Shown: in pieces, positions 39,831 through 47,550 of the stretch | Numbering within the stretch: the first letter of the stretch is position 1 | Layout of the letters: each line of letters opens with the position of its first letter | Assembly: GCA_902590345.1 (NCBI GenBank) | Contig: CACIWK010000002.1 | Coordinates: 62,001-126,000, forward strand | DNA length: 64,000 nt | Source: an uncultured Pelagibacteraceae bacterium | GTDB taxonomy: Bacteria; Pseudomonadota; Alphaproteobacteria; Pelagibacterales; AG-422-B15 | Direction of reading: 5' to 3' | Program-made: the position numbers and the translations under genes | The notes under the pieces: generated by a model | What the model was told of the DNA's origin: nothing | The model's input: the letters and a program-made list of their open reading frames with translations, nothing else | Databases searched by the model: none

Positions 39831-40316
39831 ATGAAAAAATTATTTTTTACAATTTTAATTTTAATATCCTATGCATTTAGTTCTCAAAGCAATGAAGAAA
39901 ACATGTGGTCTTTTTCATTAGGTCAATTTGATGTAAATGACACATTTGACTCATCAGAATTAAGATTTGAATATTTGTATGGGAATAACTTTTTAAAAAA
40001 TAATTATGATCTTAAACCTTTCTTGGGTGTTATGAGAAACGGAGATAACGGAAAATATATTTATTCAGGTTTAAGAAAAGATATTGGAATTTCAGAAAAA
40101 TGGTTTTTTACTCCAAGCTTTGCGTTGGGATATTATGATCGAGGAGATAGTAAAGATTTAGGATATAATCTTGAATTTAGAAGTCAGATTGAGTTTTCAT
40201 ATAAACTTAAATCAAGTCGAATAGGATTTAATTTAAATCACATATCCAATGCAAGCATTGGTGATACGAATCCTGGGACAGAAAGTGCAACGATCTCACT
40301 CATAAGACCGTTCTAA
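39831..40316 (+). CDS. pagL: PagL-like lipid A 3-O-deacylase
   Basis: A 161-residue outer-membrane protein with a signal peptide (about 1-20), alternating beta strands and a C-terminal phenylalanine. The catalytic set of PagL is His126, Ser128 and Glu140 in Pseudomonas; here NHISNASIGDTNPGTESATI supplies His137, Ser139 and Glu151 with identical spacing, including the SNA triplet. PagL removes the 3-O-linked acyl chain of lipid A. It starts 10 bases after the secreted-protein gene. Its stop codon overlaps that of convergent ftsY. Confidence 0.85.
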   Translation: MKKLFFTILILISYAFSSQSNEENMWSFSLGQFDVNDTFDSSELRFEYLYGNNFLKNNYDLKPFLGVMRNGDNGKYIYSGLRKDIGISEKWFFTPSFALGYYDRGDSKDLGYNLEFRSQIEFSYKLKSSRIGFNLNHISNASIGDTNPGTESATISLIRPF

Positions 40317-41185
40317 TTTTTAATAAAATTATTAGAAAATTGCTCAGGATCAAAATCAATAAGATCACTGATTTGCTCACCACTACCAATTGCTAAAATT
40401 GGTATTTTTGTTTTGTTGGAAATTGATACTAGTGTTCCTCCTGCTGCATTGGAATCAAATTTCGTCATAATAATGCCAGTAATTTTCGTAAATTTATTAA
40501 ATTCTTCCACTTGTTTTAAGGCATTTTGCCCTGTTGTGGCATCAATCGATATTATTGAATCATGAGGAAGTGTTTCATCGTGTTTTTTAAGCACTCGGTC
40601 AATTTTACCTAATTGATCCATTAAATCAGTTTTGTTCTGAAGTCTTCCAGCTGTATCGATTATAACTACGTCAATATTATTTTTATTTGCATATGCAATT
40701 GACTTATAAACTACACTTGCTGGGTCAGATTTGTAAGCATCTCTTACAAAGTCCGTTCCTATTTTATCAGCCCATTCATTCAATTGTTCTGCAGCCGCTG
40801 CTCTAAAGGTATCAGCAGCAACCAGCAGAACATTTTTTTTCTCTTTTTGAAATTGATTTGCCAGTTTTGCAATTGTTGTAGTTTTACCTGAACCATTTAC
40901 GCCTACCATTAATATAACGTAGGGTTTTACGTTATTTTTATAGTCAATTTTTTTTATATTTGTTGATACAATTTCATTTATAATTTTACTAAGAGATGAT
41001 TGGATTTCTTCCAGCGAAGGGGCATTAGAAAATTTTTCATTTGCTAATTTTGATGTAATGAGTTCTGATGTTTCAACATCAACGTCAGAAGTAATGAGAA
41101 GATCTTCAAAATCCTGTATTGTATTTTGATCAACTTTTTGATTTACAAATACTTTTGCTAGGCCGGATTTTAAACTCTTAAACAA
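40313..41185 (-). CDS. ftsY: Signal recognition particle receptor FtsY
   Basis: FtsY is the membrane-docking GTPase of the SRP pathway. The 290-residue protein is close to a bare NG core: the helical N part (about 1-80), then GVNGSGKTTTIAKLANQF (P-loop), ADTFRAAAAEQL, DTAGRLQNKTDLMDQL, TKFDSNAAGGT and the closing GSGEQISDLIDFDP. The long acidic A domain of E. coli FtsY is absent, as in many alphaproteobacteria. It overlaps mtaB by 8 bases on the same strand. Its partner Ffh is encoded at 43819. Confidence 0.96.
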   Translation of the reverse strand: MFKSLKSGLAKVFVNQKVDQNTIQDFEDLLITSDVDVETSELITSKLANEKFSNAPSLEEIQSSLSKIINEIVSTNIKKIDYKNNVKPYVILMVGVNGSGKTTTIAKLANQFQKEKKNVLLVAADTFRAAAAEQLNEWADKIGTDFVRDAYKSDPASVVYKSIAYANKNNIDVVIIDTAGRLQNKTDLMDQLGKIDRVLKKHDETLPHDSIISIDATTGQNALKQVEEFNKFTKITGIIMTKFDSNAAGGTLVSISNKTKIPILAIGSGEQISDLIDFDPEQFSNNFIKN

Positions 41186-43622: not shown

Positions 43623-43705
43623 AAACACTTTATATTGAGCCAATTTTGATTTTTCCAGTAAATAAGAAATTAAATGAATCTTGACATTAACTTACTGAAG
43701 TAATA

Positions 43706-43815
43706 AAACTCAGGTTTTCCGTCAGAAATATTATTTCTGCGGTGCCATAAATAAAGGTATCGACACCAGTCAGCGAGTTTCGCCCATTGGTGCACTACCT
43801 GCTGAAGGAGAGTTT
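43706..43815 (+). promoter_or_regulatory. Structured RNA leader of ffh, candidate cis-regulatory element
   Basis: A dense set of pairings ends at the ffh ribosome site. AAACTC (43706-43711) pairs with GAGTTT (43810-43815) and AGGT (43712-43715) with ACCT (43797-43800), closing a domain whose 3' internal loop holds AAGGAG (43805-43810). Inside, CCG-T-CAGAAAT / ATTTCTG-CGG (43719-43742) is one hairpin, and CACCA..GCGA / TCGC..TGGTG (43764-43792) another. GGTG (43741-43744) could instead pair with CACC (43764-43767), giving mutually exclusive folds. I recall that a conserved RNA motif upstream of ffh has been reported in marine alphaproteobacteria, but I cannot verify a match here. It lacks the 4.5S RNA core, so it is not the SRP RNA. 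Confidence 0.65.
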
Positions 43816-43818
43816 ATT

Positions 43819-45201
43819 TTGTTTGAAAACCTTAGTAATCGGTTTGAGGAAATATTTAAGAGTTTAAAAAAGAAAGGTTCTATTGATGAGGCTTCTCTCG
43901 ATAGTGCAATGAGAGATATTCGAAGAGCTCTTCTTGAAGCTGATGTTGCATTGCCAATTGCAAAAAGATTTATAGAGGATGTCAAAAAAGAGGCGATCGG
44001 AAAAGAAATCATTCGATCAATAACGCCTGCGCAAATGATTACAAAAATTGTGAATGATCAATTAATTCAAATTTTAGGTTCAGCTTCACCCGAATTCCAA
44101 ATAAACGATAATCAAGTTTCATCCTATTTATTTGCAGGACTTCAAGGTTCTGGCAAGACAACGACTGTTGGTAAAATCGGTAATTATCTCAAAAGTAATT
44201 ACGATAAGAAGATTTTATTTGTTTCATTAGATACCACAAGACCAGCTGCTTTTGATCAGCTAAAAAAACTTTCTGAGTTAATTGATGTAACAATTTTACC
44301 CAAACTCGAAAATCAAATGCCTATTGATATTGTATCAAGAGCAAAACAATTTGCTGAATTACAGGAAATTGATTGTGTTTTATATGATACAGCGGGGAGA
44401 ATGAATGTTGAAGAAGGGCTAATGAGCGAATTGAGTTTGCTGGAAAAAGAAATTAGCCCTCTAGAAACGATACTTGTTTTAGACAGCCTAACTGGCCAGG
44501 AGGCAGTGAATGTTGCAAGAGATTTTGCAAAAGCAATCAATATTACAGGCTCTATTCTTACTAGGATTGATGGCGATGCTCGAGGTGGAGCCGCATTAAG
44601 CATGAAGTACATTACTGATTGTCCAATTAAATTTATGGGAGTTGGGGAGCAAGTCGATGACCTTGAAAAATTTCACCCAGAGCGAATTGCCAATCGTATT
44701 CTTGGAATGGGAGATATTGTAACCTTAGTTGAAAAAGCTGCTGAAACTGTTGATCAAGAAGATGCCGAAGAAATGGCTAAAAAATTACAAAAAGGAGAAT
44801 TTGACCTCGACGATTTGCTTAGTCAAATCAGACAGATGAAAAAAATGGGTGGCATTTCGGGTATGATGAAATTCATTCCTGGACTAAGTAATCTGAGTGA
44901 TAAGATCCCACAAAATACTAATCCTGACAACTCAATCGCTCAACAAGAAGCAATTATTCTATCAATGACAAAATACGAGCGAAGCAAGCCAAAGATAATT
45001 AATGGATCAAGAAAAAAAAGAATAGCGGCAGGGTCAGGGACTTCAGTATCCGAAATAAATAAAATTCTAAAACAACATAGAAAGATGTCAGACATGATGA
45101 AGAAGTTATCTAGAAAAGGGGGAGGATCAATTGATCCAAATATGTTAGCAGGCCAACTTGGAAGTGGCATGCCAAGTGATTTTTTTAAAAATAAATTTTA
45201 A
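43819..45201 (+). CDS. ffh: Signal recognition particle protein Ffh
   Basis: Ffh binds signal peptides of inner-membrane proteins and 4.5S RNA. The 460-residue protein has the N domain (MFENLSNRFEEIFKSLKKKG), the G domain with GLQGSGKTTTVGKIGNYL, DTTRPAAFDQLKKL, DTAGRMNVEEGL and TRIDGDARGGAALS, and the methionine-rich M domain with RKKRIAAGSGTSVSEINKIL. The start is TTG 43819, placed six to nine bases after a strong AAGGAGAG; the resulting MFENLS is the family start. The upstream leader may control translation. It heads ffh-rpsP-rimM-trmD-rplS. Confidence 0.96.
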   Translation: MFENLSNRFEEIFKSLKKKGSIDEASLDSAMRDIRRALLEADVALPIAKRFIEDVKKEAIGKEIIRSITPAQMITKIVNDQLIQILGSASPEFQINDNQVSSYLFAGLQGSGKTTTVGKIGNYLKSNYDKKILFVSLDTTRPAAFDQLKKLSELIDVTILPKLENQMPIDIVSRAKQFAELQEIDCVLYDTAGRMNVEEGLMSELSLLEKEISPLETILVLDSLTGQEAVNVARDFAKAINITGSILTRIDGDARGGAALSMKYITDCPIKFMGVGEQVDDLEKFHPERIANRILGMGDIVTLVEKAAETVDQEDAEEMAKKLQKGEFDLDDLLSQIRQMKKMGGISGMMKFIPGLSNLSDKIPQNTNPDNSIAQQEAIILSMTKYERSKPKIINGSRKKRIAAGSGTSVSEINKILKQHRKMSDMMKKLSRKGGGSIDPNMLAGQLGSGMPSDFFKNKF

Positions 45202-45227: not shown

Positions 45228-45701
45228 ATGGCGTTAAAAATAAGACTATCGAGAGCAGGTTCAAAAAAAAGGCCTGTATACAGAGTTGTAGTTGCAGATT
45301 CAAGAAGTCCGCGAGATGGTAAATTTATTGAAAAGGTAGGATTGTACAATCCTCTTTTACAAAAAGATAATAAGGATAGGATCCAACTAAACTTAGACTC
45401 AATAAAAGAGTGGATTTCTAAAGGAGCAAAACCAACAGATAAGGTTGCAAGATTTCTGGGAGAAGCCGGCGTAATACCAATCCCAGCACAAGGCAACAAT
45501 CCTAAAAAAGCTCAGCCAAAAAAGAAAGCACAAGAAAGATTAGCCGCAGCTGAGGAAGTAAAGAATCAGCCTACTCCTGAAGCTTCAGCAGAAGAGACTC
45601 CAGCAGAGGAAGCTCCAGCATCAGAAGCAAAAACTGATGAAGCTCCAGCAGAAGAGACTCCAGCAGAGGAAGCTCCAGCAGAAGAGGAGAAAAAAGACTA
45701 A
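45228..45701 (+). CDS. rpsP: 30S ribosomal protein S16 with acidic C-terminal tail
   Basis: The first 85 or so residues are canonical S16 ([38 protein letters not shown]...). Some 70 further residues form a low-complexity tail: a lysine-rich segment followed by [10 protein letters not shown]-type repeats. Alphaproteobacterial S16 proteins are often extended, but this Ala/Glu/Pro tail shows a recent internal duplication (see the repeat at 45578). S16 is a primary 16S rRNA binder. The ATG is preceded by AAGGAG. It lies 26 bases after ffh and 11 before rimM. Confidence 0.96.
45578..45680 (+). repeat. 60-base period duplication in the rpsP tail
   Basis: Two 43-base copies (45578-45620 and 45638-45680) differ at one base and are offset by exactly 60 bases, so they encode the same 14 residues in frame (EA(S/P)[11 protein letters not shown]). 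The near identity at DNA level indicates a recent duplication and a site liable to gain or lose 20-residue units. Confidence 0.85.
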
Positions 45702-45712
45702 GCTTATTAATT

Positions 45713-46219
45713 ATGTCCCAATTGATAGTTATTGGAGAAGTAAGAGCAGTTCACGGTTTAAAGGGTCATTTCAAGATTACATCATATACAGAAACGCCAG
45801 ACGATGTATTTAGATATGGCCCCTGTAGACTTGGGAAAAAATATTCAAATATTACTCTTAAAAAATTGAAAGAGTTAAAAACTGGTTATATTGCTAGTTG
45901 TGAACAAATTAAAACAAGGGGGTTGGCTGAAAAAATTGTAGGGCTTACAATAGAAATCGATCAATCGTGTTTACCAGCTATAAAAAAATTAAACCAATAC
46001 TATTACCATCAATTAATTAATTTAATTGTAAAAACTAATGATGGAAAAAATATTGGAAAAGTAATATCTGTTCAGAATTACGGTTCATCGGATTTACTAG
46101 AAATAAGAAAAAAAAATGCTAAAGACTACTTTATTCCAATAAGTGAAAACACAATAAAAAAAATTGATCTGATAAAAAAAATTATTATTACAAAAAATAT
46201 AAATGACTATATAGGCTAG
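45713..46219 (+). CDS. rimM: 16S rRNA processing protein RimM
   Basis: RimM helps mature the 30S subunit head by binding S19. The 168-residue protein has the N-terminal VIGEVRAVHGLKGHFKITSYTE, family-typical, and after a linker the PRC-barrel with YYHQLINLIVKTNDGKNIGKVISVQNYGSSDLLEI. It is lysine-rich but complete. It sits between rpsP and trmD in the conserved order, 2 bases before trmD. Confidence 0.94.
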   Translation: MSQLIVIGEVRAVHGLKGHFKITSYTETPDDVFRYGPCRLGKKYSNITLKKLKELKTGYIASCEQIKTRGLAEKIVGLTIEIDQSCLPAIKKLNQYYYHQLINLIVKTNDGKNIGKVISVQNYGSSDLLEIRKKNAKDYFIPISENTIKKIDLIKKIIITKNINDYIG

Positions 46220-46221
46220 TA

Positions 46222-46938
46222 ATGTATCGAGTAAAAATTATCACACTTTTCCCAAATAGTTTTCCTGGACTTTTAAATACAGGAGTCGTGGGTAAGGCAT
46301 TAAAGAAAAAAATATGGTCATTAAAAACAATTGATCCGAGAAAATATTCAAAAGGTAATTACAAAAAAGTAGATGATACCACAGCTGGTGGCGGTCCTGG
46401 TATGATTTTAAAAGCAGATGTAATCGGGAAGTCTATTGATGCTTGTTACAAAAATATAAAATCTAAAGATAGTTATCCAATGATATATTTAAGTCCTCGC
46501 GGTTCTCCTTTAACTCAAAGTAAAGTTATTAATTTTTCAAAGATGAAAGGAATTAATATTCTCTGTGGTAGATATGAAGGCATTGATCAACGTATACTCG
46601 ATTTCTATCCTATTGAGGAAATAAGTATTGGAGACTATATACTGGCGGGCGGTGAAATAGCTTCCCAGGTTTTAGTGGAGTCAATAGTGAGACTGTTGCC
46701 AGGAACACTTAGTGACATGAAGTCTGCTAGTTCAGAGACCTTCTCAAAAGACCTTCTTGAATACCCTCAGTATACAAGGCCTAAAAAATGGAAAAATTTG
46801 ACAATTCCAGACATATTGCTCTCTGGAAACCACAGAAATATTAGTGAGTGGCGCTTAAAACAATCTGAAAAACTCACACAGAAAGTTAGGCCAGATTTAT
46901 GGAAAAACTACAAAAAAAGCAAGACAAGGAAGAAATAA
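46222..46938 (+). CDS. trmD: tRNA (guanine-N1)-methyltransferase TrmD
   Basis: TrmD methylates G37 of tRNAs with G36, preventing frameshifts. The 238-residue protein has ITLFPNSFPGLLNTGVVGKAL, VDDTTAGGGPGMILKADV, MIYLSPRGSPLTQ, and the knotted SAM site LCGRYEGIDQRILDF with ISIGDYILAGGEIASQVLVES. The C-terminal YTRPKKWK and PDILLSGNH are also conserved. It belongs to the ffh-rpsP-rimM-trmD-rplS operon. Confidence 0.97.
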   Translation: MYRVKIITLFPNSFPGLLNTGVVGKALKKKIWSLKTIDPRKYSKGNYKKVDDTTAGGGPGMILKADVIGKSIDACYKNIKSKDSYPMIYLSPRGSPLTQSKVINFSKMKGINILCGRYEGIDQRILDFYPIEEISIGDYILAGGEIASQVLVESIVRLLPGTLSDMKSASSETFSKDLLEYPQYTRPKKWKNLTIPDILLSGNHRNISEWRLKQSEKLTQKVRPDLWKNYKKSKTRKK

Positions 46939-46965: not shown

Positions 46966-47550
46966 ATGAACATCATAGAACAATTCGAAAAAGACCAGAT
47001 AAAGTCACTAGTCAAAGGTAAGAAAATACCACAATTCCATCCAGGAGATACAGTAAGAGTGAATGTTAAGGTACGTGAGGGTACACGTGAGAGAATACAG
47101 GCATTCGAGGGCGTTTGTATCAGAAAGAAAAATAGAGGTCTAAGTTCTTCATTTACAGTAAGAAAAATTTCTTTTGGTGAGGGCGTAGAAAGAGTGTTTC
47201 CAATCTTTAGTCCGTCTATTGACTCCATCTCGATTGTAAGAAGTGGACAGGTCAGAAGAGCTAAGCTTTACTATCTTAGAGATTTAACCGGTAAGAAAGC
47301 AAGGATCGTTGAGAGAATTCGAAAGAAGCAACCAGATCTTGCTAGTTTATATATTGATGAGAGTGAAGAAGTTGTAGAAGAAGAAATTATTGCTTCTGAT
47401 GAGCCCTCTCAAGATGAGAGTGTTGAAGTTGCAGCTGATGCTTCTCAAGCTGAGGAAAAAACAGAATCTGAAGTTGATGAGATTGCTCAAGAACAAGTTC
47501 CTGAAGATAATGCTGAAAGTTCAGAAGAATCAGAAACAACAAAAGAATAA
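46966..47550 (+). CDS. rplS: 50S ribosomal protein L19 with acidic C-terminal tail
   Basis: Residues 1 to about 120 are L19 ([46 protein letters not shown], then [19 protein letters not shown]). About 70 additional residues form an acidic, Glu/Ala/Ser-rich tail that is probably disordered. L19 sits at the 30S-50S interface. It is the second ribosomal protein of this operon with such a tail. A GCGAGG ribosome site precedes the ATG. Confidence 0.95.

Follow-up and report, generated by a model that had tools for sequence, protein, structure and literature searches.

What does the structured RNA that precedes ffh in an uncultured Pelagibacteraceae bacterium serve to regulate? The locus lies in a 64,000-nt stretch of DNA that was analyzed as a whole (the window). 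An earlier note, made from the letters alone, had described a structured leader that enclosed the ffh ribosome-binding site and suited translational control of ffh. The motifs on which that description was built are correctly read and placed: AAACTC at 43706-43711, GAGTTT at 43810-43815, AAGGAG at 43805-43810, and the TTG start of ffh at 43819. The motif near ffh that the note mentioned for marine alphaproteobacteria is the ffh motif, Rfam family RF01793, reported from Pelagibacter as one bulged hairpin found mostly before ffh (Meyer et al. 2009, PMC2704228).

Results

The ffh leader in the window

The Rfam search that had been proposed as a check was run on the whole window and returned one match, to RF01793 ("ffh"), covering part of the leader and scoring 44.6 bits against a gathering score of 35 bits. 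The matched RNA has the bulged hairpin, the loop cytosines, the covarying stem, and the place before ffh of this family; there is a single copy in the window and no second one elsewhere in the genome. The gene for the other SRP GTPase, ftsY, is without such a leader, as had been noted. Folding of the 131-nt leader segment gave -36.1 kcal/mol (z = -3.4), a value equalled by 0 of 200 shuffled sequences. The encoded Ffh is 96-99% identical to the Ffh of many Pelagibacteraceae single-cell genomes. The features of the locus are collected in Table 1.

The TTGACA element and an A/T-rich -10 region upstream of the leader are kept in relatives at similar spacing, and a generic consensus promoter scan called no promoter. 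From these elements we infer a promoter from which transcription would be expected to start near 43713-43717. No transcription start site for ffh of other alphaproteobacteria was found in the literature searched.

The rpsP gene of the window carries at 45480-45701 a long repetitive Ala/Glu-rich C-terminal extension. Many Pelagibacterales contigs start approximately 1.66-1.75 kb 3' of the RNA, that is, near rpsP (for example in G477, G516, and G467), which suggests that assemblies break at this repeat.

Table 1. Features of the ffh leader and of neighboring genes in the window.
Feature	Position	Strand	Description
Presumed promoter	43681..43709	+	-35 TTGACA 43681-43686, 17-nt spacer, -10 TAAAAC 43704-43709
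R1 three-hairpin model match	43708..43806	+	83.3 bits, a match by construction because the window sequence is a training member (L001); sole R1 match in the window, so that the informative part is the absence of others
Hairpin H1	43719..43742	+	CCG 43719-43721/CGG 43740-43742, then CAGAAAT 43723-43729/ATTTCTG 43733-43739
Hairpin H2	43743..43759	+	TGCC 43743-43746/GGTA 43756-43759
RF01793 (ffh) match	43749..43800	+	44.6 bits vs 35
Hairpin H3	43764..43792	+	Outer stem of 7 pairs and inner stem of 4 pairs, separated by a 2x2 internal loop with C.C and A.C
Conserved tail after H3	43793..43806	+	CACTACCTGCTGAA in the window; class-wide sequence conservation
ffh ribosome-binding site	43805..43810	+	AAGGAG, from sequence; outside any conserved helix
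ffh	43819..45201	+	TTG start, 460 aa; ORF and relatives
rpsP (bS16)	45228..45701	+	ORF; gene tracked by the RNA in adjacency tests
rimM	45713-46219	+	ORF; used as search query
trmD	46222-46938	+	ORF; used as search query
rplS	46966-47550	+	ORF; used as search query
ftsY	40313-41185	minus	Without ffh-type leader

Three hairpins and a tail make up the conserved RNA

Two sets of leaders were examined for covariation, one of 30 aligned Pelagibacterales leaders (A1) and one of 85 leaders from the class (A3). In A1, 94.6% of cells were paired, and covariation was 0.266 compared with 0.139 for shuffled and at most 0.119 for slid alignments. In A3, both-side changes were seen in 24 of 26 pairs, with covariation of 0.476 compared with 0.151 shuffled; because these leaders were aligned by fitting them to the model, the figure leans towards it and A1 is the cleaner test.

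Each of the three hairpins covaries. Both sides of H1 had changed in 3 of 7 pairs in A1 and in all 7 in A3, and in Pelagibacterales this hairpin takes the form CCGCA..TGCGG with G-C to A-U changes. The corresponding counts for H2 were 6 of 8 and 8 of 8, its variants in Pelagibacterales including UGCC..GGUA, CCUC..GAGG, CCAAA..UUUGG, and many others; in the window itself H2 is short, and its predicted probability in an ensemble from the single sequence is 0.07. The hairpin that forms the paired core of RF01793, H3, has predicted pairing probabilities mostly above 0.95 in the window and was paired at 100% in A1 and 99.8% in A3, with covariation. H1 lies outside the Rfam model, which marks the stretch of H2 as unpaired. 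In the tail that follows H3, T occupies positions 10 and 11 in 127 and 128 of 143 loci, and G occupies position 13 in 95, a pattern that suggests a pause site. The conserved RNA is thus composed of H1, H2, H3, and the tail, and is larger than the single hairpin of Rfam.

Two leaders (L085 and L092, from G169 and G265) have a long, nearly perfect inverted repeat (CCCACTCCCCCTTCCCAACCACCC...) inserted 3' of the RNA and ahead of the ffh start codon, which is thereby displaced to approximately +121.

Pairings outside the three hairpins

The AAACTC/GAGTTT pairing, which had been thought to close a domain of about 110 nt, is present in the unconstrained minimum-energy fold of the window leader. Among 13 related leaders, however, 70.5% of its cells were paired compared with 66.8% after shuffling (58 of 500 shuffles were as high), its covariation was 0.124 compared with 0.134 shuffled, and it is missing in more divergent relatives. 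Its 5' arm shares bases with the presumed -10 box and is therefore probably untranscribed. A more general closing helix between the 5' flank and the tail, which would give a four-way junction, appealed when leaders were viewed singly and was rejected upon permutation: the mean duplex of the 5' flank with its own tail in 85 leaders was -4.34 kcal/mol, compared with -4.41 +/- 0.17 kcal/mol for permuted tails. With both tests negative, the ribosome-binding site is not inside a conserved helix.

What survives of the earlier description is therefore a conserved, structured leader before ffh; the closed domain and the enclosure of AAGGAG do not. Lack of covariation and loss in relatives, either of which had been named as grounds for abandoning the structure, apply to the closing helix and not to the covarying core hairpin. 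Nor did the alternative GGTG/CACC fold (43741-43744 with 43765-43768) hold up among relatives, many of which read GGTA and CATC. A competing fold with modest support pairs the 3' arm of H2 with the bases after H3, thereby extending H3; co-variation was seen at columns 62-102 (UA/GU) and 60-104 (GC/GU), and several of the pairs break in a third to half of leaders.

Range across Alphaproteobacteria

The RNA occurs across the Alphaproteobacteria. A three-hairpin model trained on Pelagibacterales leaders only (R1) matched GC-rich alphaproteobacterial leaders of other orders end to end, with scores of up to 66.8 bits. With an extended model (R2), built partly on loci from the 386 sampled genomes of the class, the RNA was detected in 242 of these genomes compared with 113 using RF01793, roughly doubling the number. 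Because R2 was partly trained on the sampled genomes and is blind to genes, the position of each locus serves as an independent check; 39 of the 40 R2 loci outside model building sit 4-76 nt before the start of ffh, and the remaining one sits 62 nt before rpsP.

The RNA stays with rpsP

In most genomes ffh is the gene immediately downstream of the RNA. Wherever the RNA preceded ffh and enough sequence was available, rpsP followed ffh in the same operon. The sole RNA-bearing exception, L147 (G268), was rejected as a case of RNA and ffh without rpsP, the contig being chimeric or misassembled, with the ffh N-terminus running into a dnaA-dnaN-recF region. In seven genomes of four families (f48, f16, f85, and f151), the RNA lies directly before rpsP. 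The f16 genome G433 has the order ffh-[RNA]-rpsP. In f85 (G135), rpsP lies 56 nt 3' of the RNA, and ffh is on a different contig without the RNA; in f151 (G318) the distance to rpsP is 292 nt, and ffh is again on a different contig, its upstream sequence cut off. Among ffh loci without a nearby rpsP, no such RNA was found where upstream sequence was visible. The RNA thus stays with rpsP where ffh has been lost, has moved, or lies upstream.

The other genes of the operon are less constant companions. The rplS gene is 0.6 Mb from the RNA in G178 and 2.0 Mb in G319, and lies on a different contig in G433 and G154; trmD was absent from the 6-8 kb around the RNA in G178, G433, and G154. In G154, where rimM was not found, the operon headed by the RNA is ffh-rpsP alone. 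Among the RNA-headed operons examined, rpsP was the only gene common to all.

Two further arrangements were observed. In G071 and G104 (L280, L302, L288, and L305), rpsP is unlinked from ffh, and neither gene was found to carry the RNA. At L212, L217, L232, and L236, the start of rpsP is approximately 300-400 nt farther from the RNA than is typical, as though ffh and rpsP were separated by an additional stretch or gene.

A family apparently without SRP retains the RNA

Family f48 is represented by four draft genomes of 1.3-1.4 Mb that are 93-97% complete (G098, G216, G306, and G380, with loci L158, L151, L134, and L139). Neither Ffh nor FtsY was found in any of the four by tblastn or with Pfam SRP54, which gave matches in 14 of 14 control genomes. 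The 4.5S RNA was likewise not found in the four genomes, and SecY was found in each. The four drafts thus agree on an apparent loss of the whole SRP pathway. To our knowledge, the SRP is widely viewed as conserved across all domains of life, which makes this family noteworthy in its own right.

All four f48 genomes carry the RNA above the Rfam cut-off (38.5-48.7 bits), with H2 and H3 intact. Directly after it comes rpsP; in L158, the locus with a complete region, rimM, trmD, and rplS come next. The dapF gene lies divergently upstream, as in the window, giving dapF<-[RNA]->rpsP; from this synteny, ffh appears to have been removed from an ancestral dapF<-[RNA]->ffh-rpsP arrangement while the RNA stayed. 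A leader responsive to Ffh should be found only together with Ffh, and in these four genomes the RNA is found without it.

In another genome (G068, f18, 0.6 Mb, 88% complete), Ffh and 4.5S RNA were not found, with an SRP54 match below threshold; rpsP is present and the leader RNA was not detected. This is probably a reduced symbiont.

Discussion

An RNA that tracks a single ribosomal protein gene is most naturally read as serving autogenous control, here by bS16. We lean towards the RNA being a three-hairpin, cis-acting, autogenous leader of the ffh-rpsP-rimM-trmD-rplS operon, with bS16 as its putative ligand. The RNA resembles a ribosomal protein leader of an S16 type in being a covarying structured RNA 5' of a ribosomal protein operon whose association follows rpsP. 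Its name would then be a misnomer owed to the usual position of ffh as first gene of the operon, and a switch that controls S16 is likelier than one that controls Ffh. As to the earlier suggestion of translational control of ffh, the leader does precede ffh, but control centered on ffh is doubtful since the RNA is kept at rpsP in genomes that lack ffh or have it upstream or in another part of the genome.

Under autogenous control, bS16 in excess over 16S rRNA would bind the folded leader and lower expression of its own operon. In many lineages outside the Pelagibacterales, H3 and a U-rich tail might act as an intrinsic terminator or as a hairpin-stabilised pause site. Among genomes above 60% GC, a terminator-like tail directly follows H3 at 35 of 71 loci, compared with 2.0 +/- 1.4 expected from random offsets. 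Pelagibacterales tails are mostly not terminator-like, nor is that of the window, in which no terminator was found; no single output mechanism consequently suits every lineage. Between H3 and the first start codon there are 17-232 nt in the class, with a median of 52.5 nt outside the Pelagibacterales, and 21-42 nt within them (median 26, the value also seen for ffh in the window). At this distance, protein bound at H3 in Pelagibacterales would sit within the ribosome loading zone and could hinder loading of the 30S subunit.

Several observations count against a three-hairpin bS16 leader. Genomes including G071, G104, and G068 have rpsP without a detected RNA, though weak matches can be missed, and H2 is weak in the window itself. 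The RNA could also be kept for transcription of rpsP or for mRNA processing, with bS16 not being the ligand. Another possibility, which we consider unlikely, is a constitutive element at the head of the rpsP operon, with RNA polymerase pausing, partial termination, or RNase cleavage determined by H3 and its tail and no specific protein ligand. The excess of terminator-like tails in GC-rich genomes favors such an element, and the TT and then G at 10-13 nt after H3 resemble what we take to be the geometry of a hairpin-stabilised pause. The strong covariation of H1 and H2 and the conserved internal loop of H3 instead suggest a specific partner, and the tail in the window is not terminator-like. 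It is less probable still that the leader acts in trans, being set free as an sRNA of approximately 95 nt with functions elsewhere. Rfam gives the type of RF01793 as sRNA, the ffh motif was, according to Meyer et al. (PMC2704228), detected in small-RNA metatranscriptomes, a transcript annotated as RF01793 is listed in Mesorhizobium, and the distance to the start codon is variable. Yet the RNA keeps its place at the head of the operon, even after the loss of ffh with dapF synteny, which action in trans does not require.

Control by Ffh, with the leader binding Ffh and repressing ffh, or sensing free Ffh or 4.5S RNA, is quite improbable. It would account for the position of ffh directly 3' of the RNA in most genomes, and the 5' strand of H3, GUCAG with an A.C mismatch, presumably resembles part of the symmetric loop of 4.5S RNA. 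That mismatch is nonetheless replaced by C-G in many lineages, and the RNA persists without any SRP in f48 and before rpsP, not ffh, in three further families. Regulation of ffh was likewise brought up by Meyer et al., who found the motif unlike the Ffh site of 4.5S RNA (PMC2704228). That bL19, RimM, or TrmD is bound in place of bS16 we judge to be very improbable. All three are encoded in the operon of the window, and an L19 leader is known in Firmicutes, but neither rplS nor trmD is near the RNA in G178, G433, and G154, all of which have rpsP there, and G154 yielded no rimM.

Among known systems, RF01793 as published (PMC2704228) is the same RNA, corresponding to H3 and its flanks, with a shared site before ffh and a shared bulged hairpin with conserved loop cytosines. 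It was described as one hairpin linked to ffh, to which the present analysis adds two covarying hairpins on the 5' side, a wider range, and rpsP as the constant gene. For Flavobacteria, Eckert and Weinberg (2020, PMC7247131) proposed an S16-responsive leader directly 5' of rpsP, which is usually accompanied by rimM; this leader compares with the present RNA in gene position and belongs to another phylum. The L19 leader (RF00556), known from Firmicutes and extended to Flavobacteria, serves another ribosomal protein gene of the window operon. It precedes rplS, which can be unlinked from the present RNA, and the Rfam search gave no match to RF00556 in the window. The rpsB and rpsL motifs of Pelagibacter (PMC2704228) are, like the present RNA, structured leaders of ribosomal protein operons in the same organisms, but they serve other genes, and the ffh motif was not grouped with them in 2009.

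The ffh motif has been without an assigned ligand since 2009, under a name that points at the SRP, and its genomic context now redirects attention to rpsP. Judged from comparative sequence, there is about an even chance that RF01793 is not SRP-related and is instead a class-wide, three-hairpin autogenous bS16 leader, retained under selection in a lineage lacking the SRP. The trmD operon was singled out in a 2024 review as a rare ribosomal protein operon without information on its regulation (PMC10931766). If the bS16 reading is true, this leader would explain how the ffh-rpsP-rimM-trmD-rplS operon is controlled in Alphaproteobacteria.
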